Shown: in pieces, positions 17,986 to 62,560 of the stretch
How positions within the stretch are numbered: the first letter of the stretch is position 1
Layout: each line of letters starts with the position of its first letter
From: Bremia lactucae
Lineage: Eukaryota > Oomycota > Peronosporomycetes > Peronosporales > Peronosporaceae
Assembly: GCF_004359215.1 (NCBI RefSeq)
Contig: NC_090613.1
Coordinates: 1,441,382-1,505,381, forward strand
DNA: 64,000 bases
Direction of reading: 5' to 3'
Position numbers and translations under genes: made by a program
Notes under the pieces: model-generated
Databases searched by the model: none
What the model saw: the letters and a program-made list of their open reading frames with translations, nothing else
What the model was told of the DNA's origin: nothing

Positions 17986-19104
17986 GTCTCCAACCTCGTC
18001 AACCACTGTAAAGGGCCCAATGAAACGCGGCAACAACTTCGTAGTACCTCCAGGTAGTACAGAAATTGCATTTTTAGGTAGGGTAGCAGTACTTAATAGT
18101 ACATTTTCACTCACTCTAAAGCGTTCATTATTTTTGCAACCATTTCTGTCCGCATATTCTTTTTCCTTGTCCTGTGCGCTTGCCATCGCGTCACGGACTT
18201 TTCGTGTGATGGCTAATCGCTCATCCACAAAGCATTGAGCCTTGCTCACGCTTTTAGCATTTAACTCGCCTATGACACCGCCTAGAGGTCGGTTATAATA
18301 AGACGTAGTTATATTGACCACTGCTAAACTGGCAGGGTCACTAGGGCAAGTTTCAGTCTTTGAGATAATACCCTCATGGGTCATCGTCATATTGACGAAA
18401 CTATGTCCCTCTTTCGCACCGAGCATAGTGTGGGGCCCTTCCCCGCTAAGACTTGGGCTGCGCACAAACGAGACTGGCGTCTGAGGATGGCGCAGTCCAT
18501 AATATATAAAACGGCGTCTCACCCGTACTGGCGTGGTCACTGTAATTTATAGCGAACTCCACAAAGGGCAATTGCTTGCTCCACTCTTTGGGAGTTGCTA
18601 TAGTGCGTAAGACATCTGCAACGACCCGGTTAGCACGTTCTGTTTGGCCATCGGTATGGGGATGAGTTGCGGTCGACATGTGGAGCTTAGTACCTAGCAG
18701 ATCAAACACAAGTCGCCAAAAACCAGACGTAAAACGTGGATCCAAGTCCGATACTATGGACTCGGGCATCCCGTGTTGTCGGTATACAGGATCCAAGAAC
18801 AAGAGAGCTGCCTTCTTGCCTGTGATCGATGGTTACATGGGGCTAAACGCATCATTTTGACCAATCTATCTACAAAGACGACGAGTCTCGTCCGACCCGT
18901 GTGGTCGGGCGGCTTGCCAAACATGAAGTCCAGACTTACTGACTTCCAACAGATGGTTGTAATCGGTAGGGCTTCAGTGGCGCACTGCTGGACGGTGCGG
19001 GTTAATGCGCTGACACTGTTCGCTAGAGCGAATTTAGTTGGCCACCCATCTATGTAGATGTGACCACCAAAATTCCTCTGACACTCGTAAGAATGTCTTT
19101 TCAC
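17806..19104 (-). pseudogene. Integrase of element A, first copy
   Basis: Frames 19104-18754, 18802-18446 and 18540-17806 together cover a Ty3/gypsy integrase. The catalytic-core start appears as VFVDRLVKMMRLAPC, the second Asp region as SIVSDLDPRFTSGFW, and the third as HTDGQTERANR. The GPY/F-like module (RFIGPFTVVDEVGDLNYRL) comes at the C-terminal end and is followed by an acidic tail. The frame shifts twice within the core, so no full-length enzyme is encoded. Confidence 0.85.
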
Positions 19105-19237
19105 GGCCTAGATGCCCTTTAGATGGCGCATCATGGAGATCGTGAAGGATCATCAGCTTGAGAACTGTGCCATGAGGCCCATAGATTCTCAAGGGATCAC
19201 AAGGTGACAGCTGATGCCATAACAGCCATCGCTGTAG

Positions 19238-19846
19238 CTAAAGCGAATTAGCTTTCAAGTACGGAAGGAAAACCTTTCGTCCACCAAAGTGATCCAACAG
19301 CAGGCGACAGTGGTCGTCCTGACTGTAGCTCTCTTTTATCTCAGAGGCCAATGAGCTTGTCACGTGGTATGCCTTCACGGCTGCCAACGTGGACGGCTGA
19401 AATTGTGCTTTCGCACTAGACACACTTTCCTGGTGTCTAACCTCGAAGTCTGGTCTGCGCGATAAAGCGTCAGCCAAGACATTCGACTTACCCGGCTTAT
19501 ATTCAACTTTGAAATTAAATTCAGAGAAGAATGTGAGCCATCTTGCCATTCTAGGCGAGAGGTGCGGTGAGTTTATTGCGGTCCGCAGTGATGCGTGATC
19601 CGTATAAACCACAAATGGTTCGGTGCCCAATAGGTGCACACGAAACTTGACAAGAGCATACTTTATTGAAAGTAGCTCTTTGTCATGCACAGGGTAATTC
19701 AGTTCCGCGGCTTTTAATAGCCGGGACTGATAAGAGATGACACGGTCAACGCCGTCGTCATCCTTCTGCATGAGCGCGCTGCCGATTGCAAAATTACTTG
19801 CATCGCAGACGACGCTAAAGGGCTTATCCGCGTCTGGCAATGCCAA
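19238..19846 (-). pseudogene. RNase H region of element A (end of first copy)
   Basis: 202 codons of the Ty3-type RNase H: FSVVCDASNFAIGSALMQKD at the start, then the PVHDKELLSIKYAL and VYTDHASLRT motifs, and NVLADALSRRPDFE at the end. The frame is open but runs into the N at 19868 just before the RT end, so it is cut from its own RT. Confidence 0.85.
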
Positions 19847-19867
19847 GACCGGTGCCTCTACAAGAGA

Positions 19868-19868
19868 N
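19868..19868. other. Single N at the junction of the direct duplication
   Basis: The only ambiguous base I noticed. The sequence right after it (19869 onward) restarts exactly at the equivalent of 17058. The base right before it corresponds to 22593, where the second copy runs on into RT. That is the pattern of two contigs with overlapping ends joined without merging. Confidence 0.85.
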
Positions 19869-20616
19869 AATCATGGAGGGCTCAGGGAAAATCGCTTGGG
19901 CGTATTTTCCCGATCCCGGTCGTGTTGCGTTCAAATGAAACGCCCGACCAATACGAGGCGGAATTCCTGCGCCGCATTCATCCGCATTCCGATGCGATGA
20001 AACAGCGGTCGCAGCGAATTAATTTCGCCCGCTTGCGTGTGAAAGAAATCATGGGCGGTACTGTACCCCCTGTTTCTTCTCACAACGCTACTTCTGCTAG
20101 TCCATTTGAGACTAGCGTAGAGGCCTCAGCTGGTCCTCCTTTTCATAGGCAGCCACCAAGCCGGACACATCAATACGTAGGGTATCGATCGGTTCCTAAG
20201 AGTCAAAAATCTTCGGGTAACCTTTTTATTGGACGAGGATCTGATACCCTTGCCTCACGGAGCGGTGGGCAAGCAACTTTCCAACAAGAAGCGTTGATTC
20301 CCACCCGCATCCACCAGTGCAGGTGGCGCCCGATAGGAGTAGCGATCTCGCCCACCTACTCGCGGCTGCCTTACCTTCGTACGTTCAGTTGCATGCGTTA
20401 AGCGCTGCTGAACGACGTATTGCGCATCTCGAGGGTCAAGTCTCACGACTGACCTCGGATCTCGTTGATGTCCGAGCGAAGGCTCGTCAGGGTTATGACC
20501 GCCAGAAGACTCGCTTGGACCTTTTTGAACGAATAATGCTGAGGGATCCGCGTTACTCGCGTGATGTCCCTCGATCTCCAAGTCCTGTTCGTGAGGGAGG
20601 AATCGGTCCGATAGCT

Positions 20617-21915
20617 TTATGCCTTCTCCGTCCCCCTCATCCAAACGACGCTCGACTCACAGTCGGCGTCACCATCGGTCTCCTTAGCCAGATGGGAATA
20701 TTTGACCTCATTTGGGTCCACATACCGTTTCAGACGACCCTCGTAAAATACGGGGTGCGTCTTCATATACGGGGGAAGGGTGAGCCTATAATTTAGGTCT
20801 CCAACCTCGTCAACCACTGTAAAGGGCCCAATGAAACGCGGCAACAACTTCGTAGTACCTCCAGGTAGTACAGAAATTGCATTTTTAGGTAGGGTAGCAG
20901 TACTTAATAGTACATTTTCACTCACTCTAAAGCGTTCATTATTTTTGCAACCATTTCTGTCCGCATATTCTTTTTCCTTGTCCTGTGCGCTTGCCATCGC
21001 GTCACGGACTTTTCGTGTGATGGCTAATCGCTCATCCACAAAGCATTGAGCCTTGCTCACGCTTTTAGCATTTAACTCGCCTATGACACCGCCTAGAGGT
21101 CGGTTATAATAAGACGTAGTTATATTGACCACTGCTAAACTGGCAGGGTCACTAGGGCAAGTTTCAGTCTTTGAGATAATACCCTCATGGGTCATCGTCA
21201 TATTGACGAAACTATGTCCCTCTTTCGCACCGAGCATAGTGTGGGGCCCTTCCCCGCTAAGACTTGGGCTGCGCACAAACGAGACTGGCGTCTGAGGATG
21301 GCGCAGTCCATAATATATAAAACGGCGTCTCACCCGTACTGGCGTGGTCACTGTAATTTATAGCGAACTCCACAAAGGGCAATTGCTTGCTCCACTCTTT
21401 GGGAGTTGCTATAGTGCGTAAGACATCTGCAACGACCCGGTTAGCACGTTCTGTTTGGCCATCGGTATGGGGATGAGTTGCGGTCGACATGTGGAGCTTA
21501 GTACCTAGCAGATCAAACACAAGTCGCCAAAAACCAGACGTAAAACGTGGATCCAAGTCCGATACTATGGACTCGGGCATCCCGTGTTGTCGGTATACAG
21601 GATCCAAGAACAAGAGAGCTGCCTTCTTGCCTGTGATCGATGGTTACATGGGGCTAAACGCATCATTTTGACCAATCTATCTACAAAGACGACGAGTCTC
21701 GTCCGACCCGTGTGGTCGGGCGGCTTGCCAAACATGAAGTCCAGACTTACTGACTTCCAACAGATGGTTGTAATCGGTAGGGCTTCAGTGGCGCACTGCT
21801 GGACGGTGCGGGTTAATGCGCTGACACTGTTCGCTAGAGCGAATTTAGTTGGCCACCCATCTATGTAGATGTGACCACCAAAATTCCTCTGACACTCGTA
21901 AGAATGTCTTTTCAC
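20617..21915 (-). pseudogene. Integrase of element A, second copy
   Basis: Identical in its predicted peptides to the copy at 17806-19104, with the same frame shifts at the same places. Two real insertions would be expected to differ more. A 92-codon RNase H C-terminal remnant (22327-22049) precedes it in reading order. Confidence 0.85.
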
Positions 21916-22305
21916 GGCCTAGATGCCCTTTAGATGGCGCATCATGGAGATCGTGAAGGATCATCAGCTTGAGAACTGTGCCATGAGGCCCATAGATTCT
22001 CAAGGGATCACAAGGTGACAGCTGATGCCATAACAGCCATCGCTGTAGCTAAAGCGAATTAGCTTTCAAGTACGGAAGGAAAACCTTTCGTCCACCAAAG
22101 TGATCCAACAGCAGGCGACAGTGGTCGTCCTGACTGTAGCTCTCTTTTATCTCAGAGGCCAATGAGCTTGTCACGTGGTATGCCTTCACGGCTGCCAACG
22201 TGGACGGCTGAAATTGTGCTTTCGCACTAGACACGCTTTCCTGGTGTCTAACCTCGAAGTCTGGTCTGCGCGATAAAGCGTCAGCCAAGACATTCGACTG
22301 TATTC

Positions 22306-27045: not shown

Positions 27046-28839
27046 ATGCCACCGAAGCGCACCTCTTCTCGTTATGGATCAACACAGACGCCACCCAATA
27101 CTCCTCAAGGTGCTCTTCGCGTGCGCATATTTATACTCTACTCTTGTATTGGGCTGTATTTACTGGGCACCGTGATGTGGGGCATCGGTCCCAGCGCCTC
27201 GTTCTCAAATTTCGGCAAAGGTGCCAACGTTCACTGGAGGCGGCAGTTGCGACGGCAAAAATGGAAAGACACGTACGATAATAACGTTGGCATGACAATC
27301 AATAGGAATTGGATGGAACAGCTCTTAAAAATGGACAGACCGCCTGAATTGCGCTGCATCGGCTGGAAACAGACCGATAGTTGTAACCTCCCGGCAACGG
27401 AATTGCCCACGCGAGATCGAGGCTGTGACCAGTTTGTACGTGGTGGAGCCGGAGGTTATTGTGTCATGGAAGATGATGCTACGGGACAGAAAGTTGAGGT
27501 CATGCATACAGCGTGTGGGACACTTTTCCCTAGTGTGGCGATAAGTTGTCGCCATGGAAGCGACTTTGTACGCTTTCAATGGCAAGTGGCAAAACTTGCC
27601 GCAGCGATCCAACACGAGAGAGAAAGTGCGGTTCACGATGATAATTTGAAACGTACGAGACATCGTGAGGGCATTGTGATGGTCATTTATCCAAAGCTTT
27701 TGGTGAGTGCATATGCTTCGATTCGTACGTTGCGGGCGATTAACTGCACACTGCCAATCGAATTATGGTATTGTGCGTTTGAAATGGATATGGGAAACGG
27801 GACCTCATTGCTGGATGGCATTCCTAAGAAATTACAACAAGATTATGGCCCGGTGACGCTACGTGCCATTATAGATGCGCAAGTAATAGGCTTTAACTCG
27901 AAAGTGTATGCTATCACCAATAGTGAGTTTGAACATGTCCTCTTTTTGGATTCAGATAACGTCGCTGTCCGAGATCCAAGTTATCTATTTAACCTGCCGG
28001 AGTTTGAGCAAACTGGAGCAATTTTCTGGCCGGATTTTTGGCATCCAGGTCACACAATTTTCAACATTCATGATGACTCGTTGCTATGGGAGCTCCTTGA
28101 CATGCCGTTTATCGATATGTTTGAGCAAGAAAGTGGGCAGCTATTGATCGACAAGACGAAGTGCTCGGCACCACTGCGGATGCTTAACCTCTTGGCTTTT
28201 CATGACCCTAATTTATTCTCTCGATACAAGTTGACGCATGGTGATAAGGATCTTTTTCGCCTTGCGTGGCTCAAGACAAACTCCCCATTTCATATGATAG
28301 CATACCCACCAGGAATCGCTGGTACAGTGCGCGCGACGAAATTCTGCGGTATGTCAATGGTCCAGTATGATACAACTGGACAGGCATTGTTCTTGCATCG
28401 TAATGCTAGAAAGATAACCGGAGGAATCGAAGCAGAGAACACACCAGACGAGAAAATCTGGACGCATCTGCAACGTTTTCGTTATCGTGCTTCTTCGCTT
28501 GAGGTGCGAGATCTTAAGGCAACGGTCAAGTCGCACCTAAAATCTAGTATTAAATATATGGTGGATGCCTCACTGAAACCGTCGGATGTTTTGATAATAT
28601 CGTACCAGCAGCTGTGCAAGAAATACAGTATCCAGATTTATGGTGCTTCTCCGGAGTTTCACAAAGCTCAGTGGTGCTACGGCCAGCCAACTGTCACTGC
28701 ACCCATGTACAAGACCAGTTTGTTGAAAGAGACGGCATTTTTCGGCTTGGAGGATATATTGTTAAATTTTGCGAATGACGCGGTAACATTGTTGTCAAAA
28801 TCGGCAGTAGAATATATCGCGGATAGTATTGTATATTAA
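27046..28839 (+). CDS. GT71-like alpha-mannosyltransferase (MNN1/MNN2 type), type II membrane protein
   Basis: 597 aa, intronless. A short basic tail is followed by a membrane anchor (about residues 26-48) and then a lumenal part, as in Golgi glycosyltransferases. A cysteine-rich stem (RCIGWKQTDSC and GGYCVMEDDATG) precedes the catalytic domain. That domain starts at GIVMVIYPKLLVSAYASIR, and the DxD box is HVLFLDSDNVAVRDPSYLF, typical of Mannosyl_trans3 enzymes that use GDP-mannose and Mn2+. FWPDFWHPGH and HGDKDLFRLAWL follow, also seen in GT71. A C-terminal 120-residue extension is unassigned. The diverged paralog lies tail-to-tail 282 bp downstream. Role in glycoprotein or cell-wall mannan building is inferred. 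Confidence 0.8.
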   Translation: MPPKRTSSRYGSTQTPPNTPQGALRVRIFILYSCIGLYLLGTVMWGIGPSASFSNFGKGANVHWRRQLRRQKWKDTYDNNVGMTINRNWMEQLLKMDRPPELRCIGWKQTDSCNLPATELPTRDRGCDQFVRGGAGGYCVMEDDATGQKVEVMHTACGTLFPSVAISCRHGSDFVRFQWQVAKLAAAIQHERESAVHDDNLKRTRHREGIVMVIYPKLLVSAYASIRTLRAINCTLPIELWYCAFEMDMGNGTSLLDGIPKKLQQDYGPVTLRAIIDAQVIGFNSKVYAITNSEFEHVLFLDSDNVAVRDPSYLFNLPEFEQTGAIFWPDFWHPGHTIFNIHDDSLLWELLDMPFIDMFEQESGQLLIDKTKCSAPLRMLNLLAFHDPNLFSRYKLTHGDKDLFRLAWLKTNSPFHMIAYPPGIAGTVRATKFCGMSMVQYDTTGQALFLHRNARKITGGIEAENTPDEKIWTHLQRFRYRASSLEVRDLKATVKSHLKSSIKYMVDASLKPSDVLIISYQQLCKKYSIQIYGASPEFHKAQWCYGQPTVTAPMYKTSLLKETAFFGLEDILLNFANDAVTLLSKSAVEYIADSIVY

Positions 28840-29121: not shown

Positions 29122-30960
29122 TCAGTTGACAAGATCGTTCGGCTCCTTTTTATTCGTTCGAGTGATTTGTGCGGCATTCATCGCATACCTGCGCAAGTCT
29201 GTCTCGAGGTTACTAAAGCTTAAATTTGCAAAAGGTTGAAAGTAAAAGTATTTGTTTTTCATCATCATATCCACCACACCATAGCATGTCTGGCCCTTTG
29301 GGAATCCATCAAGAGCTACATGTACGTCAATCTTGTAATGGTTTCTCTCTGGTGCCGTACGAAAAGAAAGCAGATGAGTCCAATAGATTGCATCAGGATA
29401 CCCATCGACTTCCGGAATATCCAAAGTGGGCATGAGCGAAATTGAGGCTTTCTTTAATTTCTCTCTAGTTTCCTCGATCGTGTGAATGACGCGTTCATTA
29501 GATTGGGATAGCAGCCGTTCTGGAGTCACAGGAAGACTTGTGGCAGTCTTAGGATGCACTCGTTTCAATTCGCCTGTGAGCTTGCGGGTATTTCGATGTA
29601 GGAATAAAACGTCGCCATAAATGTCGTGTTGTGCCATTGCAATACCGCAAAACGAATTATTTATAGCCTTACCAGCAACAGCTGGGGGCACGTCTATCAT
29701 GTAAAAAGGTAACTTGAGTTTTAGCCAAGCAAGTCGAAACAAATCTTTATCTCCGTGCACCAATTTTAGATTTTTGAAAAAGTTGGGCGTATGAAAGGAA
29801 TAAAACTTGACCAATTCAAGCGCAGCACCATGTCGTCGCCGGTCAATAACCAATTGTCCACTTTCCTGTTCAAACATATCGACAAACGCTTGATCAAGCA
29901 GCTCCCACAGCAACGACTGGCTGTGGATGTTAAAAATCGAGTGTTTTGGATGCCAAAAATCCGGCCAAAAAATTGCACCAGTGTCTGTAAACTCCTGCGA
30001 TTCAAACAAAAAACTTGGATCTCTGACCGGCACATTATCCGAGTCAAGAAATAAAATACTATCAAAGTGACTGTGATAAATTGCAAACACTTTTGCATCA
30101 AACCCTATCGCCTTCTTATTAATAATTTCACGGAACGTCACATTCCTGTGCACTTGCGCAAGTTGGCGCAGCGGTGCCATCGAATAAGGAGCTGCGTCCA
30201 TCTCTTTTTTTCGGTACCATAGCTCAATCGGCAACGAGCACAGCAAGACTTCTCGAAGCGCTCGGATTGACGCATAGGCACTCGGCACAATTTTTGGGTA
30301 CACTACCATTACAATTCCCTTCGACTCTTTTTCTGAGTTCTTGATTATATTTGGCAGAAGGAAGGTAGAGTTAAGCGCTTTGCTTATTGCATCATTCGCA
30401 ATTATTGGAAAATTGAAAAAAGGTTCAGCATCGAATCACCGAAATTGGCCTCCCGAGCGCACGCTTCGGCAATATCTTTGCATGACTCGAAATCTCTCCT
30501 TGGTATGCTTGTCCTCCACCTCACAGTATCCTGACTCCATGTAAGGCACCAGCATGTGACATGGTTTGTCTAATTGTGGCAACCTCGAGCCGTAAGGACT
30601 GCAACTATCTGTCGCTCGCCAGCCGACGCATCGGAATTCTCGAAGTCTCTTTGGACCTTCTGGCAACATTTTCACACTGCGAGCGTGCTCTTCCGCTTGT
30701 GCTGCTTCACTGGCCACTGATTGGAAGTTTGATATTGCTTGAATAGTGTCGAGAGCTCTATGCTTAGACCAAAATACTACCACGAATCCGCAAATGTACA
30801 GGATACCGCAGTAAAGTATCAGACGTGACCACCGATTCGATAAAGCCGATGAAATTGTTTTGGGTTTATCATGGTGATGCAGTATTAATGGAAGTGGAGT
30901 TAGCGAGGCAAGGCTCGAACGGAGGCGGCTTGAACTTTTGGCCATTGCACCGCTTCGCAC
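29122..30960 (-). pseudogene. Second GT71-like mannosyltransferase, interrupted by an in-frame TGA
   Basis: Paralog of the gene at 27046, convergent with it. Frame 30960-30436 holds a basic tail, an anchor (about residues 45-66) and the cysteine-rich stem (RCVGWRATDSC). A TGA at 30436-30438 stops it. The same frame continues without any other break into the catalytic domain (GIVMVVYPKIVPSAYASIR, SILFLDSDNVPVRDPSFLF, HGDKDLFRLAWLK) and ends at 29122. At the stop, copy 1 has an arginine codon, so CGA to TGA is a simple explanation. A 54-nt intron (GTGATT to AATAAG) would restore the frame but has a poor acceptor and would remove residues that copy 1 keeps. The region after the stop could still be expressed separately. 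Confidence 0.72.
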
Positions 30961-32176: not shown

Positions 32177-32815
32177 TGTAACAGGCTAGAGTTGCCCTAA
32201 TGTCACACAGTTCCCGTTAAGTACATTAGGTGTACTTAAGGGGATAGTCAATTACTAAATAATAGTAATTAGACCCAACACTCGGGTGTGGCGCACATTT
32301 GTGACCAACCCTTGTGGATGTGATGCACATGGGTGCATTCACATTAGAAGAGATGACGCCCAGCGTCATCCGTGATGACGGCTAGCGTCATCCGTTACGC
32401 GAGGTATCTAGAAAGATACGCTCGCAATACATATTAAGTGCTATCTATAGAGATGACATTTTAATTGGTAAAATAGGTATTTATATTTGATACGATTAAA
32501 TATAAATCAGTCTGGAAACTACTTCCTACTTGGTAAGTGCGCACGAGGAGCCGGATTACCGCTCCCATGACGACACTTAACCAGAGTACTTAGTGCGTTG
32601 GATGAGGTCGCTAACGCCCACTACAACTACCTCACTGCACGCAAGAGACGCAGGTTAAACCGCTTTTTCACTCTGCTAGGGTGTGTGTCTAAGTAGAGCG
32701 TGGCCGCATTACGACGTGCCCGCCTGCAGTATTAGTTATAATTAAGTTAGCATTAACAGATAGAAAGAAGAGAAACTTCATTATATTAATACAGTAATCA
32801 TTTGACCCTCTTTAA
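32177..32815 (+). repeat. Truncated LTR of the element A family
   Basis: Starts TGTAACAGG and follows the 3' LTR of element A in reverse complement to about the base matching 15650. It then jumps straight into the 5' flank of the duplicated gene. Its U5-side end and the 375-bp spacer present in the left arm are missing, consistent with one deletion. It contains a tandem doubling of a 20-bp unit near 32350-32395 (GATGACG...CGTCATCCGT). Confidence 0.8.
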
Positions 32816-34521
32816 ATTTTTCGCACGCCTTCACAAAACTTTTTTACGACGCGCGTCCGTCACATTTTGTGACCAAAATATCAAGTCAGATTCCTATTTA
32901 AAAAGTTTGGCTTGACAATCAAATTCGAGAGAAAATTTTGCGAATGAGCCACTATAGGTTGCAAAATCATTTTTGCTATGACCAGGGCGTGTCAGCGGAC
33001 CACTTCAACTATATGGAAAGCATGCCATTTCCGCAATCGTCTAGTCTTGCGCGCTCAATCTCAACAATGCGTCCATTTGTCGCATCGGCATCCACTTCCT
33101 CGGATGCTGCCAGTGCACCTGAGAGCGATGTCACCACATCACCCCATTTGCCCTCTCGTCCAAGTTGCGAATGGACCGAGTGGGAGGAAACGTTTGGCAG
33201 CTTGAATCCAGCCGCAGATGGCCTTGCAAGCGCAAACGCTTCTTTGGACTTGGAATTGGACGAATACTTGCTTGCTACGGCTGAAGACTTCCTCGAGCCC
33301 TTTGCAAACATCGATTTCACACCCGACTCGCCCATTCTTGCGGCCGATCAGAGTTTAATATATGATCAGAAGCATTATTTTCAAATGCTGCAGATCCCGA
33401 GCATGGACACGAGCCTTGGCTTTGGCGCAGAGCTACATAATTTAGAGGCGTGCAAAGATAATGTACTTTTGCTGTCGACAGACCATACAATGCACAGCGA
33501 TCGCAAGCGAAAAAGAGCGAAACCTGCAGGAGAGACTGACGCAGCGATAAAATTGAAGAGATCGAAACAATTTAACGCTAACATTAAAAGCGCTAGCAAG
33601 GTCAAGGAGGCGGAGATTAGATACCAACGAAGGTATAACGTTTTGCATAGGATCTTAGAGGCTTGGAATACTGGAGGCATTGAGGACATAGAGGAAATAG
33701 CGAATAGTGTCTACGAAAAGGATGTGACGCTCATCAGTCCTGACATTTCTGAGGGTCTGCACGGTCTCGAGGCTGTGTTGTCCCACTGGAATCTGCTTCT
33801 GGATGCATTTCCCGATGGAATAATGGAGGAATACGTCATTCAGCGCGAAGGTTGCAATGAAGAGCTTTTGGCCACGTGGACCTTTAGTGGTACACAGATC
33901 TATCCTTTTCTTGGCGTGCAGCCACGCCATGAGAAGATCTGCATCAGCGGAAAGTCCCTCTTCACCTTCGAGGGGGACAAAATTCGGCAGATGGTGCTGT
34001 CGTGGAACCATCGCGAGACATTGCTCTTACTAATGGGCTTACAGCCGGATAAGCCTAGCTCTGTCGTTTTCCATACAAGTGCGCGATCATGAACACCGCG
34101 CTGCTTAATTCGTGTGCAGATTATTTTGTGCCAACTTGTGCATTACTGGAGCTGAGTTTATAAGTACATTTTTAATCACTTAAAAGTTTAGCTAGCATCT
34201 GACACATTGACATTGATCCTTATCTATACCCTCCTCTTCTAGAAAGACATAAATCTGAAGTTGGGTTTCGTGTATCCCGAAATTTCACAAAAGTGGACCA
34301 GATTTAAAGGTGCTTGTGCGTCGAGAGACATGTTCCATATTAGAGGGCGTTCTGGTGTAGCGCCCTAATAAGCGGCTCGGTAGAACGCCTGTCATAATAT
34401 ATCCACCAACAGTAGTTACGTGCTTTGACAGATCTCTCGTTCCATATTCAACTAACTAATTGGGTCTATCCATTAATTTCGGCAAAATATGTTCCGTTTA
34501 GTGCAATAAAAAGCGTAAGAG
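32816..34521 (+). repeat. Right arm of the 1.7-kb inverted gene duplication
   Basis: Reverse-complement partner of 13384-15090. Similarity ends at 34521 on the outside and at 32816 on the inside. Identity is high in both gene and flanks, so the copy is recent or kept alike by gene conversion. Confidence 0.9.
32944..34092 (+). CDS. SnoaL-like (NTF2-fold) domain protein with acidic/basic N-terminal half, copy 2
   Basis: 382 aa from the ATG at 32944, with the same layout as copy 1: serine-rich acidic N-terminal half, basic centre with RKRKRAKP, and C-terminal SnoaL-like domain. Differences from copy 1 are single substitutions (for example FCYDQ for FCDDQ, AGETDAA for AGETNAA, MGLQPDK for MGVQPDK), mostly outside the folded domain. 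No frame break in either copy suggests both are functional. The promoter side differs: here a truncated LTR lies 130 bp upstream of the start codon, whereas copy 1 has a 375-bp spacer before the LTR. Confidence 0.78.
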   Translation: MSHYRLQNHFCYDQGVSADHFNYMESMPFPQSSSLARSISTMRPFVASASTSSDAASAPESDVTTSPHLPSRPSCEWTEWEETFGSLNPAADGLASANASLDLELDEYLLATAEDFLEPFANIDFTPDSPILAADQSLIYDQKHYFQMLQIPSMDTSLGFGAELHNLEACKDNVLLLSTDHTMHSDRKRKRAKPAGETDAAIKLKRSKQFNANIKSASKVKEAEIRYQRRYNVLHRILEAWNTGGIEDIEEIANSVYEKDVTLISPDISEGLHGLEAVLSHWNLLLDAFPDGIMEEYVIQREGCNEELLATWTFSGTQIYPFLGVQPRHEKICISGKSLFTFEGDKIRQMVLSWNHRETLLLLMGLQPDKPSSVVFHTSARS

Positions 34522-44020: not shown

Positions 44021-44224
44021 AGTATTAAACACGATGTACTCGTTCAACATCTACACTCGCAACGGATCGTGTCTCTATCAAGAGACTGGAATGTTCACGG
44101 CGGCAAAAGTGTGACGTACTCAGACCCGGAAGAACAAAACCGTCTGCACTTTATTCTGCTCTTCTCGCTCGAGGAGTTTGTTCGTAAGATTGCTCTCATG
44201 ACGGCAATGCAGACAGGGACAGAT

Positions 44225-44647
44225 TGTAACTGGGTTTATCGTTACATGAAATTAACACTTAAAGGTTGGTAATTAATATATTACTTTAAAGGTAGATAAT
44301 ATTTGGAGGATATTACTTTACATAGTAATATTCGGAAAGCTTATTCATTGGTAGATATAGGCCTTTATATTTACTTACTCCGCGGTCCAGTCAGCACTGG
44401 ACGCGCCCAAAGAAAGACAGATAAGACTTTAGTATACAATTAAGCTAGTATAAATAGATCGAAATAGAAGCACTTAACTATATTAAATTCAGTTTACTTT
44501 TAATTCTCTCTTAAACAAGTCTTTTAAAGAAAGTCTTCCCTCTGCACGTACTAGTGCACGTGAAGTGATGTGTGGCACCACTTGCACTGAAGCAGTGCAA
44601 AGTGCACTTGTACTGAAGCAGGTACAAGTCGGCAGCGCTCCGTTACG
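44225..44647 (+). repeat. 5' LTR of element B
   Basis: Begins TGTAACTGGG; the end is GTTACG where the partner has GTTACA. The last 150 bp (from TCTTCCCTCTGCACG) also occur in the 3' LTR of element A. The possible primer site CCTAGCAGCACTT follows, a diverged form of the TGGTAGCACTT of the other elements. Confidence 0.88.
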
Positions 44648-44759
44648 CCTAGCAGCACTTTGTAGTCCGTCCAAGGACCACAGTTCTATCATTTAACATG
44701 GACATGTTAGATTATTAGAAATACGCATCACGTTTCGCGTTATAACTACTCCTTTCTAA

Positions 44760-45646
44760 GTGACATCTTAAGGAGTGCGGTCGAACGAATGAGTTCACCG
44801 TAGGGAATGATGCCATCCTGGCGATGCTGTCCGGTATGGACAGAGATGCCCTCCATTCAGCCATCGCCAAGTTCATACAACATGAATTTGACGAGACGAA
44901 GGAAAAGGCAGCCTTGCTTATCAGCAAGGCTATCAACAGGCAGGACTGTTGAGGTTCCAACAGGTACAGAACCCTGTACCTGGGTTGACGCACACGCGTC
45001 GTCCTGAAACCTTAGAGATAGGGTGTAAAATACATTTAAGTATAGGGGAGTCAAAGAAGACTCCCTCTTAAGATGCTTCGTCGAATTGGACGATGCCATA
45101 AGAGCTCGTCCCATTGTCGACGAGCAGATGCAAGTCGCATTTGCTCAGTTGGCAGGTCGTGCCAAAACTTGGGCACTAGGCCTTACGTTGCGCGACCCAT
45201 ATGTCTTTGGGTCGCTAGAGGCTTTTAGAGCCCGGCTGAATCAGACGTCTGAACCGCTAAGTTCAGAGCTCGATCAGAGCTTCTGAAACTCAAGCAAGGC
45301 AAGCGTGATGTTCACGCTTATGCCCAGCACATACGACTCTTAGCGAGTTGTTACACAAACAACCCAGTCCATAGAACACACGTTGATTACGGTGTTCATG
45401 CAAGGACTTGCAGATGGTCCCGCAAGGACCCACCTGTTCCGCTTGGAACTGGATACGCTTGAAGAAGCAATATCAGTTGCGGAACAGGAGGACTTTAGCT
45501 TGAGACAGGCTAAAGCTAGTTCGTCATCGTATCGTCCTCCAAGACGACACGAGTTAGGAGGTCCAGAACCCATGGACCTCTCTTACGAGAAACCTCGCTT
45601 TTCGAACAATAAACGATTGCAGAAATGCAATTGCTGCCAAAATTAA
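44760..45646 (+). pseudogene. Gag of element B
   Basis: Pieces in different frames: LLISKAINRQDC near 44915-44950, 45086-45286 with QVAFAQLAGRAKTWALGL (the AxxxxLxGxAxxW pattern of retrotransposon gag), and 45383-45646 with a C-terminal MDLSYEKPRF. No intact zinc knuckle is left. Confidence 0.7.
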
Positions 45647-45926
45647 GAAACTGCGCTCAGGAGTGCAGTGCCCCCACGCCCAGTACCGAGAGGTACTAAA
45701 CGTAAATATGGACCGAATGCCAAGAAGGGCAACGGTCGGGGGTCCGACGTTGTTGTGAAAACGCAACCGCGAGGCGGACCGCCAAAAAATGGTCGGGATC
45801 AGTAGGGGTGCGACGCTCTACTGATATAGCAACCACACAAGAATTTGCAACTCTCTTGACGAAAGTTGATCCAGACATACAACACTATGTGTCTCTGAAC
45901 CTAGCGATGAGGTATCCCTCATCACC

Positions 45927-46409
45927 TTGAAGTTAAAAGTGACAAACGATGAGTCACTGAGAGCCCTAGTTGACTGTGGGGCGTCGAACAAATTTATTCG
46001 TCGCCAGTCGCTAGAGGGTCGTAGGCTCAAATATGTTGAGTTCGACATCCTTCCAACGCGGATGACGGTGCGTCTAGCGACAGGCGCAGTACTGAAACAC
46101 GTAGTGAAATCCCACTACACTTTAAAAAGTTTACAGTACGATGATGATTTCATCCTACTGGATTTGATGGACAAATTTGATGTCATCCTACGTTTACCTT
46201 GGCTCAGAAAGAATGAGTCAAGAATCAGCTGGCAGCATCGATCCGTAAAGATGCCTGCCACTTGTTCATCAGATGGCCATCTGATGAACGTCTTGAAGCG
46301 TGCACAAGCGTGTGGGTGTACTACGAGTGAGTGCGATGGCCTGACTTGTGGTGCGGTCGTTAATACGACTGCACAAGATCACAGTGTGATTACTAATCAC
46401 ACTGTGTAG
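45927..46409 (+). pseudogene. Retropepsin-like protease of element B
   Basis: 160 codons with the active-site loop ALVDCGASNKFI, where the usual DSG is DCG, and the second part DKFDVILRLPWLRKNE. VRLATG lies between. The Ser to Cys change also occurs in element C4 at the right end (63570 region), so it is a family trait rather than a fresh mutation. Confidence 0.8.
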
Positions 46410-47159
46410 GTACCTGCCGGTGGCTGTGCGAATGCACAGGCAGCACCGAAGTTCCACCACTCGAATAAGTCGAGTGGATTTAGACATGAATGTACGCCTA
46501 GCGAGCGACATTTAAGGAATATAGCGGTTGTCCAAACGGGACATCACAATGATCCTCGGTCTAGTAGAGAATTGGCCATAGAGGACCCGAATGTGATAGC
46601 ATAATCACAGTCGGAAGACGTTGAGGAAACAAGTCTTCACGTACTTGAGGAGAAATCTACTCAAATAGTTAATGCTGAAGTGACTAGATTCAGCATCCCA
46701 AGGAATGAATCCCTCGGCAGTCTGAGGATAAATCCCAGGAAGAAATTGAGTCATTGAATGTCTTGGTTAATGACGGATAAAGAGTACGCGCTTATACTCT
46801 TGATCTGTATGCACCTCCGAAATTAACTTCGGAGATAATTCAATTACCAACCCTAGAGCCTAAGCGGTTCTTGAGAGATCTGCGTGGTGGTAAAATCAAG
46901 CATCTCTGCGCACTCGTCACAGAGAACGAATACGTAAACGATTTTCGGTCAGCGGTATATTTTGCAGAGAACGAACGGGTTCTCAGCAGCTCATCGATGG
47001 ACGAAACTGTCCTCGATGTGAAGACTCGGATTGAGAGATTTACTACTCAATCCTGGGAGTCACTTAAGACAAATCCTTTGTACAACGATTTGATGGAATT
47101 CGGGGATGTATTTTCTGAAGCAGTTCCGTGTGAGTTGCCTATAAAAAGGCACTCGACAT

Positions 47160-47932
47160 GAGATCGAGCTCAAACCGGGCTCGAAGTACTGTGTCACGAA
47201 GCAATGGCAATTGCCTCGTGCACAAATACTTGCGATCGATAAATTCTTTATCGATCGATTTAAAGCGGCCATGTAAGGGATTCAACCTCCCCACATAGCT
47301 CACCGACCTTCTGTGTGCGACAGGCAACAGGATGGTGGCGGATAGTGCACGCATTCAATAAAGTAAATGCAGCAGCGGTACCGGCTCAAACACCGATTCT
47401 AGGAAAGTCGTAATCATAGATGGTATATCTGAATTACTATCTTTTCGTCTACGGATCTGATGGATGGATTTTACCAGATCCTTTCGCGTGAACGGGACAT
47501 CCCGCACACAGCAGTGAGCACTCCCAGTGGGATGCTCTGGGTATGGCTAGTTATACCACAGGGGCTTAGTAACGCCCATGCTACACTTAACAGATGCGTA
47601 ACGGATCTGTTGAGACCGGTACGAGAATTTGCACCGAGTTATTTTCACGATGTATTCGTCCATAGCCGGGCTATGACGGAACGACGGACGTGGAAGTGCA
47701 TAAAACCCACGTTCGTCAGGTTCTTACACTTGTGCGAAAGCATGAGTTGTTACGCAAACTCAAGAAGTTTATATTCGCTGCAAGCAAAATACCACTTCTT
47801 GGGCGCATCGTTGGAAAACACGGCTTGCGCCCCGATCCCGAAAAGATCAAGGCAATTACCGACTGGTCAGTTCCAATCGATGTCAAGGGACTTAGAGAGT
47901 TCCTTGGGCTAGCGGCGTACTTGCACAAGTAG
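47160..47932 (+). pseudogene. Reverse transcriptase of element B
   Basis: Degraded RT: RTPSGMLW-like VSTPSGMLWVWLVIPQGL, NAHATLNRCVTDLL, then YFHDVFVHSRA, where the YxDD box reads YFHD. The thumb side is in another frame (47690-47932: LLGRIVGKHGLRPDPEKIKA and LREFLGLAAYLHK). Stops before 47460 remove the fingers. Confidence 0.82.
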
Positions 47933-48042
47933 TCACGCAAATATGCCGAGATGACAGTTCATCTCTCTCGTCTCTTTAAAAAGACGAGAAATGGTTATGA
48001 AACGCTGATTGTCAGCGTTCCGTTGAAGGAATCAAGCAAAGC

Positions 48043-48540
48043 TTGATGCAATTACCCATCTTGGCGTGGATAATATTAATTAACAATCTTTTATTGTTAA
48101 TTTCATGTAACGATACACCCCGTTGCTGCGCGTTAATGCAATACGATACAGACGGCGCGGAGCGCGTCGTCTGTTACCAATCGCGTCAGCTGCAACCAGC
48201 TGAACGCAATTACCCAGTGCATGACAAGGAACTCCTTGCCATGAAATATGCACTGGCTAAATTTAGGGTCTATCTCCTCGGAGATAGACCGTTCATCGTA
48301 TATACGGACCATGCGTCATTACGCACGTCCGTAAACAGCCCACACCTCTCGCAAAGAATAACGAGGTGGCTATCCTTCTTCGCAGAGTATAATTTCTGCG
48401 TCGAATATAAACCAGGACGACTTAATGTCGTCGCTGATGCGTTATCACGCCGACCCGATTTCGAGTCGGCTGCGCGCTCCAACAGTGAAAGTGATCCCAC
48501 TATTGCAACACTCACTACGAGTATTCCTAACTTTGTTTGA
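48043..48540 (+). pseudogene. RNase H of element B
   Basis: 165 codons with QYDTDGAERVVCYQSRQL, PVHDKELLAMKYAL, VYTDHASLRT and VVADALSRRPDFE. It is the best preserved domain of the element; its first 30 residues are aberrant. Confidence 0.85.
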
Positions 48541-48679
48541 TGACATAAAGAAAGCCTACACAGAAGATAAAGATATTCTGCTTTTAATGGATCATCTGAT
48601 GAATCTATCTAATAAATCTCTTAAAGATTTACCGGCTTTATATCGATCGTCATGAGATCGATACACAACACGCAACGGC

Positions 48680-49263
48680 TTGCTGTACTACACAGCCGTT
48701 GCCGGTGACATTCCACGTGTCGTCGTCTCAACTCACAATGATTTGCGCTTGCGCATTATGTATCAGTGTCACGATGCACCAACAAGTGGGCATCGTGGAC
48801 GTGAGACTACTTATCTCACAGTAAGTCGCGGCTTTTACTGTATCAGCTCGTGCGCAAGTACAATCGTGCTTGCGAGGTGTGTGAACGGGTGTAACGTAGC
48901 CGTTCTGTTCGTGCCCCTAAATAACCTCTACCACTTCCAGCAGAGTGTTGGCAGTCTATATCTATTGACTTCGTCTTCGGATCCGAAGGCGATCACAAAA
49001 ACAATGGAATCCTTGTTTTGGTAGACATATTCAGCAAGATGGTACATCTTGTTGTAGTACCAGAGTCAGTCACCGCTCCAGTCTGTGCCTACGTCTCTAT
49101 CGACACGGTATTCAGACTCTACGGTTTACCTCGTGAACTAATCGCTGATAGAGACCCACGATTCACGGCGGAATTTTGGCAATCCGTGTTCCGATCTCTC
49201 GGAACACGGCTATCTATTTCAACCTCTGATCATTCAGAGGCAGATGGTGAGACGGACGCGTAA
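48680..49263 (+). pseudogene. Integrase of element B
   Basis: Frame 48680-49024 has the zinc-binding HHCC part (CHDAPTSGHRGRETTYL). Frame 49018-49263 has the core: LVDIFSKMVHLVVVPESV, LPRELIADRDPRFTAEFW and the third acidic region, SEADGETDA, where the usual HPQTDGQTE has decayed. The chromo or GPY/F end is missing. Confidence 0.82.
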
Positions 49264-49616
49264 ATCACGTCCTCGAAGAATACTTCGAGGTTACGTCCAA
49301 TCGTATATCCGAATTGGAGCTAGTTCTTACCGATAGTCGAGCTCGCCATCATAATTCGGTGCATGCGTCTGCAACGCATATCCACCCAATTAGAGGGATC
49401 CTCTAGTTTAAGTGGGGGCAACATCGAAAGAGATAAACTCAGCAATAGTGATGACACTATTGTTAGCCATTATACCAACGATGCTCAAGAAACGTATCGA
49501 GATTAAATACTTCCTCAGCGCGAATGTTCTTCGCGCTGGGATCAAGGCCTTGTAGCTTTGTTGCAATAAATAAGAGAATTTATTGTGAGGAGTAGTCTAT
49601 CCAGACAAGAAACTGA

Positions 49617-50178
49617 CTAGCCTTTCGAACAAAAGTCACGACTTCTTCTCAGGGGCAAGACGATACATTTTGTTGTCTTCGCTCTTGAAGCAGGGGTATC
49701 ACAAGAATTTTTATTACGATGGCTTGCGCCATCGTCTTCACAACGCACAGAAATATGTGCGGGTGATGGCACGGGAGACGGGGCTGGCGATGACGAATAA
49801 TCCTCATCGTCGAAACTAAACATGCTATAGCGAACGCTATTAGCCCGTCTATCCGATTGATTCCCCTCGTTCAAGGGCTCATAGTCAGCCGCCTGACGAT
49901 GATCAGGCGACTGTTCTGTTTTCCCCGAGTCGGCCATTTCGTCCGACTGCGTAGTCGACCTTCAAAAAAGGGCTGCATTCACGTGGTGAATCACCACGTG
50001 CACCCGCACCATCTAGTGTTGCGGGAGAAGACGATACAACGGCAGACGGAACGTCTGCCGCAAGAGACAACAACGTGTCACCCGCAGCTGCATGAACCGC
50101 AGCCGAAGGCGCCGCACTATACCGCATGGACTTGTTAACCATGCGATAGAATTGCCAATGATGGTTCTGACCAATCAA
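49617..50178 (-). pseudogene. Antisense ORF of element B
   Basis: Two minus-strand frames, 50178-49903 and 49937-49617, opposite to pol and just inside the 3' LTR. They read as one broken protein: alanine-rich first (VHAAAGDTLLSLAADVP), then MADSGKTEQSPDHRQAADYE and an acidic, proline/serine-rich part (FDDEDYSSSPAPSPVPSP). No homologous family was recognized. The position equals that of the antisense ORF in element A. Confidence 0.5.
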
Positions 50179-50259
50179 TATCGTATTTAATTAAGTGGTC
50201 CTATAGTGACCACTCTATCCAATGACAGTCAGAGTGATTGTCGTTTGAGGGACGGGTGA

Positions 50260-50703
50260 TGTAACAGGGTGTATCGTTACATGAAATTAACACTTAAAGG
50301 TTGTTGATTAATATATTATTTTAGAGGTCGATAATATTTGAAAATTATTACTTTACATGGTAAATATTCGGAAAGCTTATCCATTGGTAGATATAAACCA
50401 ATATATCTTCTTGCTCCGCGGTCCAGTCAGCACTGGACGCGCGCAAAGAGAGAGGCGGATAAGACTTTATTACGTGTTTTGTATTAGTTTATAATTAAGT
50501 TAATATTAAATAGATCGAAACAGAAGCCTTAATTATATTAAATACAGTTTTTTTCTTAAAAACTTTCTTAAATCAAGTTAATTAAATGGAGTCTTCCTCT
50601 GCACGTTCTAGTGTACGGGAAGTGACGTAAGGCACCACCCGCACTGAAGCAGTGCGAAGTGGGCTTGTACTGAAGCAGTACAAGTCAGTAGTGCCCCGTT
50701 ACA
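50260..50703 (+). repeat. 3' LTR of element B
   Basis: 444 bp from TGTAACAGGG to CCCCGTTACA, preceded by the purine-rich GAGGGACGGGTGA (polypurine tract). CAGAT follows at once. Confidence 0.9.
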
Positions 50704-50789
50704 CAGATACAATTGGAACGATGGAGGAGAAATACATCGGAGTTTAAGTTTGTGGCCAGGGCCTTAGAGCTGTGTGACCCTAAAGCCCC

Positions 50790-57595: not shown

Positions 57596-58700
57596 TAACG
57601 GGAAACCCTGTAACCCCACCTTCACCAACAGTCACTATGTGACTGATGTAGAGTGACAGAGAATACTATTCTGTTCCTCTTTGTAATAAAGCACTTGTTG
57701 GTTTCTTTTAATTATAAATTTTGTTTGCGCATGGTTTTTAAGGTCTGTGTAAGGGCGCAAACATGGCAGCTACACGACTTGGTGTAGCTGCTAGTGATGC
57801 AAACATATCGGTAGATCTACTGCGGGGAGCAAGTCGCCTCCAACTTCGATTGGAGGTGACTTTTACGAGTCGGCGTCATCGTCGGACTCGGTGGCCACTG
57901 TAAAGACCTCCGGTCCGCCCGGGGCCGAATTCGCCAAACCAGTGGGTTCCAATGAGACAGATTAAGTTTTGACGTCGAGAATGTTGGAGGGTACTTTCTT
58001 GGTGAAGAGTCATCTTGTGAGACTCCGTGGAAAAAAGCGGTACTGTTGACGCAAAAGTGCATTACCCGGAACGAAGTGGTCGTAAAGGTGTCTTTGAAGA
58101 GAATGTTGCTGGTGGTTCAAGTGATGCTATAATGCATTACTAGGAACGAAGCGATCGCAAAGATCACTTGAAAAAGAACGTTATTCCAGGATTAACATAG
58201 CCAATGGGAGAGGGATCGTAATATGTTGCGGATTGCTCCGGTAAAGAAACCCTAGTTGCCTTCGTCTGGTATGATCAACGAACGGTATAATAAAACCTTG
58301 TTGTTCGACTCATCCAGGCTTTAGAATCCTGGCCAGGACAAATCGAATTTCTTCATTGATGCCTTTTTTCGGCATCGATCGTTTACTTGCAAGCGGGATT
58401 AGGATATAACTGCCTTGTATAAAGCTTGGGAAACATTCATACAGAAAAAAATGTTTCCCAAGCTTTATACAAGGCAGTTATATCTCAAATTTGCAAAGCG
58501 CAGCTGGCTTGACAAAGAGTTACGTTACGTTACCGGTTTGAATAATGGTACGTAGTCGGTGCACGCTATAAGCTGCACCGTTTGTCTAAAAAGGTAGGTT
58601 TGGTTTGCCTCTCGTGCGGAGACTCATGTCCATGATTTTTAAGGGTGCAGGTCATGCCCCTTAGGAGGCATACTCCCTATAGATCCTCATTGGAGGACGC
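57596..58700 (+). repeat. LTR-like start and degenerate repeats
   Basis: TGTAACGGGAAACCCTGTAA at 57594-57613 looks like an LTR terminus. At about 58060-58190 two similar units (GGAACGAAG-GGTCGTAAAGGTG type) stand in tandem. No coding frame could be supported. Confidence 0.45.
58403..58484. repeat. Perfect 35-bp inverted repeat, 12-nt loop
   Basis: Arms 58403-58437 and 58450-58484 are exact reverse complements, AT-rich on the loop side. An RNA of this region would fold into an uninterrupted 35-bp duplex. Confidence 0.97.
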
Positions 58701-59356: not shown

Positions 59357-59794
59357 AAGCAGTGGTCCGTTTCGTCAAGGATTCCATCGCTGATCGGTAG
59401 ACCGACAGAAACGGAACTCTGACAAAAATGGAAGAGCAAACATACTTCATTTATTGTTGATGACCTAGTCCTACTGTCTACGGTAAACCTACCAAAACAT
59501 GTAGTGACGAATGTAGGCAGTAATAATATACCTGGCCAGTAATTTATTGCTGCCTACATAATATACCTAATATACCTGGCCAGTAATTTATTGCTGCCTA
59601 CATAATATACCTGGCCAGTAATATATTGCTGCCTACATTCGGCACTACATGTTTTGGTAGGTTTACCGTAGACAGTAGGACTAGGTCATCAACAATAAAT
59701 ATAAGTATGTTTGCTCTTCCATTTTGTCAGAGCTCCGTTTCTGTCGGTCTACCAATCAGCGATAGAATCCTTGACAAAAACGGACCACTGCTTT
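59357..59794. repeat. Foldback structure: 165-bp arms around a 35-bp tandem repeat
   Basis: Left arm 59357-59521 and right arm about 59629-59794 are reverse complements at roughly 95% identity. The centre has three copies of a 35-bp unit containing CCTGGCCAGTAATTTATTGC. Confidence 0.9.
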
Positions 59795-61400: not shown

Positions 61401-61541
61401 TCATATTCCATGAAACGCACAGCCGATTGCAAAATTACTGGCGTAACAGACCACATAAAATGATTAGTCTTTGGTCAGAAAATCGCCAGGATTGGCGACT
61501 GCATCAAGCTTTTCGTGATACCCTTGAAGGAACGCTGACAA

Positions 61542-62560
61542 TCAGCGTTCCATGACCACTTTACATTTTTTTTCAACAAGGAAGAAAGATGTACTGTCAT
61601 TTCGGTATAATTGCGCGAGTACTTGAGCAGATACGCCGCTAAACCGAGGGGCCTTTTTAAGTACCTTTACATCGACGGGCACAGGCCAATCGGTGATCGC
61701 CTCGATCTTTTCTGGATCGAGGCGTACACCGTGTTGCACCCAAGAAGTGGTGTTTCGCGTGCAGCGAATATACACTTCTTGAGATTTGCATACAACTGGT
61801 GCTTACGCGTGTGTGTAAGAACCGTGCGAATGTGGGTACGATCTACTTCAACATCCGACTTATCCTTCATGGCTCTGCTATGAACGAAGACATCATCAAA
61901 TAACTCGGTGCGAAATCCCGCGCCGATCTCAATAGATTGGTAACACATCTGTTAAAATGTCGCAAGGGCATTACTAAGTCCCTGTGACATGACAAGCCAC
62001 TCCCATAGCACCCCGCTTGGGGTGCTTGCTGCTGTATACGCGATATCCTGTTCACGCATGAGGATTTGATAAATCCATCTATCAGATTCATTGTCGAGAC
62101 GATAGTACTCTTGGACGTACCATCAATGATTACGCCGTTGCAGCGTTCAATTTATCAAATGCATGCACAATCCGCCATCCTCCTGTTGCTTTACGCACAT
62201 AGAAGGTGGAGAGCTATGTGGGAAAATTTGATTTCCTTACACGACCCGCTGCTTAGCTATCCGGAAAGAATTTTTCGATCACCAATGCTCGTTCACGTGG
62301 CAATGGCACTGCTTCATGACAGAGTATTTCGATTCTGGAATCAGGTCGATTTCGTGTCGAGTGCCTATATATCTTTAGGCAACTCGCACAGTACTAATTT
62401 AGGGAAGACATCCTTGAATTCGATTAAATCCTTATATAAAGGGTTTGTCTGCAAAGACTCCCAGAATTGGGACGTAAAACGTTCAATCCGAGTCTTCTCA
62501 TCGAGAACACTTTCGTCAATCGATGAGCTGCTAAGAACCCGTTTTAGTCTCAGGTAACAC
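61542..62560 (-). pseudogene. Reverse transcriptase of element D
   Basis: Frames 62091-61867, 61948-61667 and 61775-61542: LSCHRDLVMPLRHFNRCVTN is the substrate-binding region, and FDDVFVHSRAMKDKSDVEVD starts in the YxDD box. The thumb has CIFAARETPLLGC and LDPEKIEAITDWPVPVDV. The upstream RT parts to 62560 are in pieces. Confidence 0.75.

Follow-up and report, generated by a model that had tools for sequence, protein, structure and literature searches.

Element B lies at positions 44225-50703 (6479 bp) of a 64,000-nucleotide stretch of the Bremia lactucae genome (contig NC_090613.1, positions 1,441,382 to 1,505,381, forward strand), which was analysed whole and is hereafter called the window. 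Judged by its long terminal repeats (LTRs) and its flanking target duplication CAGAT, B is an old Ty3/Gypsy insertion. The two LTRs are 87-89% identical in ungapped blocks and 81.2% identical in a gapped alignment. B has the TG...CA LTRs and short target duplication of a Ty3/Gypsy element, with the exception of the 5' LTR, whose last two letters are CG, and its domains follow the order RVP_2, RVT_1, RT_RNaseH, H2C2 and rve on the plus strand, the rve match being sub-threshold. The coding frame is interrupted at several sites. In domain order, LTRs and target duplication, B resembles the oomycete Ty3/Gypsy retrotransposons described for Bremia lactucae, in which Gypsy elements make up 58.6% of the assembled sequence (PMC6570648); the hairpin saturation present in the B lineage goes unmentioned in the available parts of that paper. 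A domain search of one stem-rich relative (L017) returned Chromo and Tf2-1 SH3 domains at L017:5305-6117; a chromodomain behind the integrase typifies the chromovirus branch of Ty3/Gypsy. Viral contigs searched for relatives of the element gave five pattern matches and no relative. Related proteins occur in Peronospora effusa (82% identical) and Phytophthora fragariae (67%), and one host protein has its best match, at 88% identity, in Plasmopara halstedii.

In the scans of B and of other parts of the window, a stem is a perfect pairing of at least 8 bp with a loop of 0-8 nt, unless another range is given. A full scan of B returned 26 such stems, where 10 dinucleotide shuffles average 0.3, as well as 50 stems of at least 7 bp (3.2 in shuffles) and 77 of at least 6 bp (12.6 in shuffles). 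For stems of at least 6 bp, the excess extends over loops of about 2 to 13-15 nt, with a peak at 3-6. When loops of 3-15 nt are considered, B holds 31 inverted repeats of at least 8 bp (1.5 in shuffles), 2 mirror repeats and 6 direct repeats. These counts bear out the initial annotation, which had reported a density of stems above expectation in B and not in host genes. All 14 stems that it named in B are perfect, three of them (44911, 46380 and 48267) proving one pair longer than stated; of its five side examples in elements A and D, three are perfect at the stated coordinates, unlike 61534-61556 and 61703-61733. Host DNA at 1-12 kb of the window contains no stem, compared to 2.0 in shuffles, and 3 stems when loops of 3-15 nt are allowed. 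Regions 22-28 kb (8 stems, 0.4 in shuffles) and 50.7-64 kb (15 stems, 1.8 in shuffles) are enriched, to a level below that of B.

Composition, codon usage or an assembly artefact could in principle generate such counts, and several of the loci that we compared do contain N stretches or gaps. The excess, however, vanishes in dinucleotide shuffles and likewise in synonymous shuffles (60 per open coding stretch, stems of at least 8 bp counted). Open coding stretches of relatives of B carry 13 stems in L034 compared to 0.55 in synonymous shuffles (maximum 4), 13 in L045 (0.52), 11 in L060 (0.53), 7 in L044 (0.38) and 7 in L032 (0.17). The signal is weaker in two short coding stretches of B, with 3 stems for 0.2 expected and 2 for 0.28, the second lying inside the shuffle maximum. 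Host genes are normal (no stem in three of them) and Copia is nearly so, two Copia frames having 2 stems each for about 0.7 expected, inside the shuffle maximum of 3. In addition, the hairpin at 46264-46289 matches 1879 genomic places with at most 3 mismatches, whereas its reversed control matches none. Composition, codon usage or an assembly artefact is thus a very improbable source of the stems.

The stems are a property of the family and not of B alone. Twenty copies fetched with a fragment of B contain 22-45 stems of at least 8 bp (loops 3-15) per 7.6-kb locus, and 30 further Gypsy loci, with 1.9-3.3 kb of known sequence each, contain 4 to 30. Three Copia elements, whose open frames span 1320-1373 aa, displayed 2, 2 and 0 stems of at least 8 bp (0.7, 0.5 and 0.1 in shuffles), at most a mild excess when summed (4 compared to 1.3, and 17 compared to 7.8 for stems of at least 7 bp). 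Thirty-seven flanking segments without homology to B (55,139 bases) hold 95 stems compared to 8.7 after shuffling, ranging from 0 to 7.7 per kb. With identities assigned by eye and without a family search, the segments with no stem of 8 bp include a Copia pol (L015), a Copia gag (L011), an aldehyde dehydrogenase (L016) and another Gypsy integrase (L043), the latter having 10 stems of 6 bp where 2.3 are expected; a second Copia-like segment (L028) has 2 stems in 1.9 kb. Among the stem-rich segments, we take the one in L017 with a chromodomain and a Tf2-like SH3 domain to be a putative 3' part of the B lineage. Finally, a tract of the window with a Tf2-like SH3 domain (17058-22299), near the examples cited for element A, contains 2 stems in 5.2 kb (loops 3-15). 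The contrast of the stem-rich loci with the Copia, Tf2-like and host segments indicates that, in what was sampled, hairpin richness marks one lineage and not every retroelement or repeat. The Tf2-like tract itself holds two direct copies of 2431 bases (17058-19488 and 19869-22299), which are 99.6% identical.

The initial annotation had offered two explanations for the stems: that an RNA folded from end to end is under selection, or that short stretches are copied onto the opposite strand by a mutational process. We compared about 50 loci of the family, defining a gain as a stem instance longer than in every homologue, with at least 3 homologues required. Among 1031 instances, 52 stems were exclusive to one copy by at least 2 bp, 29 by at least 3, 18 by at least 4 and 8 by at least 6, and copy-specific stems surpassed all relatives by up to 12 bp. 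For the same four thresholds, control pairings gave 9, 1, 0 and 0 of 71 (mirror), 9, 5, 1 and 0 of 51 (A-C/G-T) and 10, 7, 2 and 0 of 50 (A-G/C-T). In L036, the sequence past the 3' arm has been lost, and in its place stands an exact reverse complement of the 5' side, yielding a 21-bp stem. Its short inner stem is common to the 14 relatives displayed, at least 7 pairs of the 21-bp stem are broken in all 26 comparable rows, and a 33-nt piece from its interior is unique in the genome. L040 underwent the same kind of arm replacement, giving a 13-bp stem. In L017, two adjacent exclusive stems lie inside a single insert, which we read as probable inverted copies of both flanks. A single event can make one arm the exact counterpart of the other, as in L036 and L040, and gains of at least 4 bp number 18, compared to 0, 1 and 2 in the controls.

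Difference clusters and loops carry the same signature. Of 57,925 pairwise difference clusters, 130 fit a reverse complement close by (10 nt or more), compared to 5 for mirror, 7 for complement and 12 for direct copies, the 130 matches representing 71 positions and the longest of them resembling self-matches of long palindromes rather than events. Inverted loops were found in 164 of 41,944 stem-loop comparisons of equal length (2084 of unequal length were excluded), as opposed to 23 of 141,207 control windows; these inversions sit on 23 inner-arm hexamers, some at the same site. The hairpin at 47233-47257 is found genome-wide in both loop orientations (at most 2 mismatches), with 286 matches to one and 48 to the inverted form between the same flanks. 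In these 48 the loop is exactly inverted in 43 cases and the match is exact throughout in 30, indicating that the inverted form was amplified or propagated; two places figure in both orientation lists among the matches listed, which comprise about 100 of the 286 for the major orientation. Taken together, the comparisons between copies show that at least some stems arise when DNA copying briefly templates on the neighbouring strand, and not by slow selection for an RNA fold. The second of the two proposed explanations is therefore directly supported by new stems, by rewritten arms and by loop inversions, each of them exceeding its controls.

Two loci that are 97% identical over 5.4 kb, L012 and L013, differ at one hairpin: one of its arms has a deletion, and the other arm a change that matches it. 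Apparent compensatory changes of B at 48080-48100 were rejected, the alignment having forced a foreign LTR-like patch onto a homologous hairpin. This patch (48067-48115) is 100% identical to at least 39 other genomic places, differs from the aligned copies displayed, and carries a stem of its own at 48078-48102. The four pairs of B concerned remain included in the counts of distinct states and of Watson-Crick double cells given below.

New copy-specific stems, arm rewriting and loop inversion together are the known signature of template-switch mutation and not that of selection on an RNA fold. In the available parts of the published reports, template switching creates hairpins and repairs or maintains them (Monttinen and Loytynoja 2022, PMC8794818), and yeast genes undergo homogenisation of inverted-repeat arms and spacer inversion (Abraham and Hazkani-Covo 2021, PMC8604942). 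As in the former, reverse-complement copying gives perfect stems in one event, multi-base compensatory change and a rare loop inversion; as in the latter, arms are homogenised and loops inverted at short inverted repeats in coding DNA. Scale and setting differ: the former deals with RNA genes and modest numbers and the latter with 39 genes in its yeast strains, whereas here a mobile-element lineage is saturated in coding and non-coding parts, with dozens of hairpins per 6.5-kb element. In great apes, six comparisons among human, chimpanzee and gorilla yielded 4017 short-range template-switching events (PMC7954356), and these share with B mutation clusters matched by a nearby reverse complement and near-perfect inverted repeats as typical sites. 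Within B homology we count 12 to 38 exclusive stems (of at least 4 to at least 2 bp) per 2232 private substitutions, the rates being measured differently in that study. The mechanism is thus already known; the saturation of one LTR-element lineage with hairpins was not found described among the titles and abstract openings listed in searches of the open-licence literature.

We then considered when the stems arise. Among 578 comparable cells for the 28 majority helices, the helix is broken in 189 (140 gapped cells were excluded). Copies with more private substitutions have lost more stems (r = 0.51, 40 rows), and the loss is close to the neutral expectation (0.30 compared to at least 0.22). Exclusive gains of at least 2 bp are distributed over 49 copies as 19 in 419 stems in the younger half and 24 in 534 in the older half, whereas age-proportional gains would place 25% of them in the younger half (p = 0.007 against). 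Stems are thus lost once a copy has inserted, and resident copies show no clear build-up of gains; from this we infer that the stems are made in the lineage that transposes. Dating of events by LTR pairs was dropped, the pairs being too few. These results bear on another account, in which template switching in resident chromosomal copies, during replication or repair of repeats, makes the stems and transposition merely spreads them. Such switching is known from DNA replication (PMC8794818 and PMC8604942, in their available parts), both arms and both directions are affected, and single-copy events such as that of L036 exist. However, residents lose stems with age, exclusive gains are not proportional to age, though this test is weak, and Copia segments and the Tf2-like Gypsy tract of the same genome are stem-poor. 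We consider an origin in resident copies quite unlikely.

Several observations weigh against an origin by template switching in the active lineage. The share of stems exclusive by at least 2 bp is higher in the controls (9 of 71) than in true stems (52 of 1031), so that true stems stand apart from the controls only in their absolute number and in the long gains. No strand direction is apparent, the rewritten arm being the 3' one in 14 cases and the 5' one in 10, with 5 ties (n = 29); for 2-bp gains, the corresponding numbers are 4, 15 and 4. Several exclusive stems are backed by just 3-6 homologues. The rank correlation between gains per stem and age is 0.20 (p = 0.17), in a test that is weak because old copies lose stems, which hides gains. 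Furthermore, most stems are shared, 806 of 876 instances being intact in one or more further copies, so that we infer their origin and do not observe it. With 38 gains of at least 2 bp per 2232 private substitutions in B homology and 16 sites per 8-bp stem, a rough balance supports about 1 stem per kb, compared to about 3-9 per kb observed, which requires that the rate be higher in the active lineage or that another force keep the stems. Finally, Copia uses reverse transcription and yet shows at most a mild stem excess, so that reverse transcription alone is insufficient.

A rival account is selection for an RNA fold that spans the entire element and is assembled from many small substitutions. 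In RNA viruses, genome-scale ordered RNA structure raises the folding energy along the whole sequence, and B is similar in this respect: its folding z-score (150-nt windows, 10 shuffles each) averages -3.85, with 86% of 43 windows below -2, whereas host DNA at 1-12 kb averages -0.03. Unlike in that system, the B family has no consistent strand asymmetry or G-U preference, and its long stems come from single templated multi-base events. The sense minus antisense energies of six copies, relative to shuffles, are -0.05, -0.64, +0.12, +0.59, -0.52 and -1.35 kcal/mol (standard errors 0.6-0.7), five of the six having no difference beyond shuffles and only L030 leaning to sense, by about 2 standard errors. 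Single changes at 82-86% identity gave 4301 G-U and 4344 A-C cells, and another count gave 1950 and 2119; below 78% identity, G-U is ahead by about 15%. G-U does not exceed A-C among distinct single states (329 and 380), family-level mismatches (7 and 8, with 4 others) or recurrent changes (52 and 86 pairs), whereas an early count in B alone leans to G-U (14 compared to 7-10). The recurrent excess of A-C over G-U hints at more G-to-A than C-to-T changes on the sense strand.

Double changes at paired sites, at 86-90% identity, number 1630 compared to 618 under independence, 73% of them Watson-Crick; Watson-Crick double cells number 122 for 58-64 expected, and other double cells 86 for about 60-64. 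Subfamily examples lie at 48556-48585 and 48669-48705. However, copying from one arm to the other also accounts for the Watson-Crick excess, and only 9 of 822 supported pairs have a second Watson-Crick type that recurs. Nucleotide diversity (pi) in B-defined stems is 0.097, 0.073 and 0.132 at codon positions 1, 2 and 3, compared to 0.101, 0.104 and 0.146 elsewhere, and 0.116 compared to 0.137 outside frames, a reduction that is mostly slight and clear at second codon positions. The distribution of helices over codon registers (32, 25 and 36; 17, 9 and 19 with support from at least 4 rows) was set aside, as it revealed merely a weak lack of the least flexible register and does not separate the models. 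Conservation of stem codons is lower than that of other codons among 109 distant homologues (0.487 compared to 0.632, p = 0.0004) and not clearly so among 8 near ones (0.822 compared to 0.853, p = 0.06), while departures at strongly conserved residues are alike (6 of 50 in stems, 17 of 184 outside). Stems therefore sit where the protein is tolerant, which is compatible with both models. Of the RNA-fold explanation put forward by the initial annotation, the paired changes above chance stand, whereas G-U preference is absent, strand difference is inconsistent and the depletion of variation is mostly weak. As the cause of the stems, RNA-fold selection appears unlikely; because of the paired changes, we keep it as a possible contributor that may help keep stems once made.

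We therefore favour, as the probable explanation, that the DNA of the B lineage has been repeatedly rewritten by short-range template switching at hairpins. Upon chance pairing of two nearby stretches, a growing strand would fold back or jump to the opposite strand, and the next bases would be templated on the partner arm, so that an imperfect stem would become longer and perfect. Such arm copying would sometimes erase old sequence and sometimes invert the loop, and every new stem could seed further events. Template switching would also have made most of the shared stems, and would act for the most part in the lineage that is transposing, whether at reverse transcription, at second-strand synthesis or in copies just made, rather than in old residents. 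Much more tentatively, the replication cycle of this lineage might itself be a hairpin writer, in which cDNA synthesis folds back or switches strand often enough to rewrite the element's own genome, coding parts included, into perfect hairpins faster than point mutation breaks them, and which amplifies the rewritten forms. A high density of perfect stems together with paired double changes is commonly taken as proof of selected RNA structure; as this pattern is at least partly mutational here, covariation alone can mislead. With 1879 near-matches of one hairpin, the family constitutes a natural experiment in which one can measure how hairpins are created, maintained and flipped by template switching, and whether retroelement replication drives template switching.

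Table 1. Features of element B and of the family, in window coordinates unless a locus is named.
Feature	Position	Strand	Basis
5' target site duplication CAGAT	44220..44224		sequence reading; same as 50704-50708
5' LTR (TGTAAC...GTTACG)	44225..44647	+	similarity to 3' LTR; ends by sequence reading
Stem 8 bp, loop 6, LTR	44310..44331		stem scan
Stem 8 bp, loop 3, LTR	44582..44600		stem scan
Stem 8 bp, loop 8, LTR	44606..44629		stem scan
Stem 9 bp, loop 4	44910..44931		stem scan
Stem 9 bp, loop 4	44961..44982		stem scan
Stem 8 bp, loop 8	45192..45215		stem scan
Stem 8 bp, loop 3	45301..45319		stem scan
Stem 8 bp, loop 7	45558..45580		stem scan
Putative aspartic protease piece (RVP_2), stop-to-stop frame	45870..46409	+	Pfam 2.3e-8
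Stem 13 bp, no loop	46264..46289		stem scan
Stem 13 bp, loop 1	46380..46406		stem scan
Stem 8 bp, loop 5	46457..46477		stem scan
Stem 11 bp, loop 3; both loop orientations present genome-wide	47233..47257		stem scan and genome pattern search
Putative reverse transcriptase piece (RVT_1)	47433..47912	+	Pfam 2.2e-8
Stem 8 bp, loop 8	47966..47989		stem scan
Putative RNase H piece (RT_RNaseH)	48001..48540	+	Pfam 2.7e-27
Stem 8 bp, loop 3	48001..48019		stem scan
Foreign patch, LTR-like repeat replacing part of RNase H coding	48067..48115 (minimum extent)	+	repeat identity
Stem 10 bp, loop 5, within foreign patch	48078..48102		stem scan
Stem 11 bp, loop 2	48267..48290		stem scan
Stem 8 bp, loop 7	48641..48663		stem scan
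Putative integrase zinc-binding piece (H2C2)	48656..49024	+	Pfam 4.9e-7
Putative integrase core piece (rve)	48925..49263	+	Pfam 2.6e-6; 28.1 bits, under curated cut-off 32.6
Stem 11 bp, loop 4	49184..49209		stem scan
Stem 8 bp, loop 4	49271..49290		stem scan
Stem 8 bp, loop 4	49443..49462		stem scan
Stem 9 bp, loop 5	49516..49538		stem scan
Stem 8 bp, loop 6	49564..49585		stem scan
Stem 8 bp, loop 4	49716..49735		stem scan
Stem 10 bp, loop 1	49980..50000		stem scan
Stem 9 bp, loop 3	50040..50060		stem scan
3' LTR (TGTAAC...GTTACA)	50260..50703	+	similarity to 5' LTR; ends by sequence reading
Stem 9 bp, loop 3, LTR	50664..50684		stem scan
3' target site duplication CAGAT	50704..50708		sequence reading
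Hairpin differing between L012 and L013	L012 2970-2989, L013 2967-2992		alignment

Elsewhere in the window, an inverted 1.7-kb duplicate (13384-15090 and 32815-34521, 97.5% identical) carries a 384-aa frame in each copy, and a SnoaL-like domain was detected in frame 32938-34092 of the second. Two putative mannosyltransferase genes (Mannosyl_trans3) lie in opposite orientations at 27046-28839 and 29122-30309. Finally, a hairpin with arms of about 30 bp is found at 58408-58479 and, about 1 kb further, short units are repeated both directly and inverted at 59509-59640.

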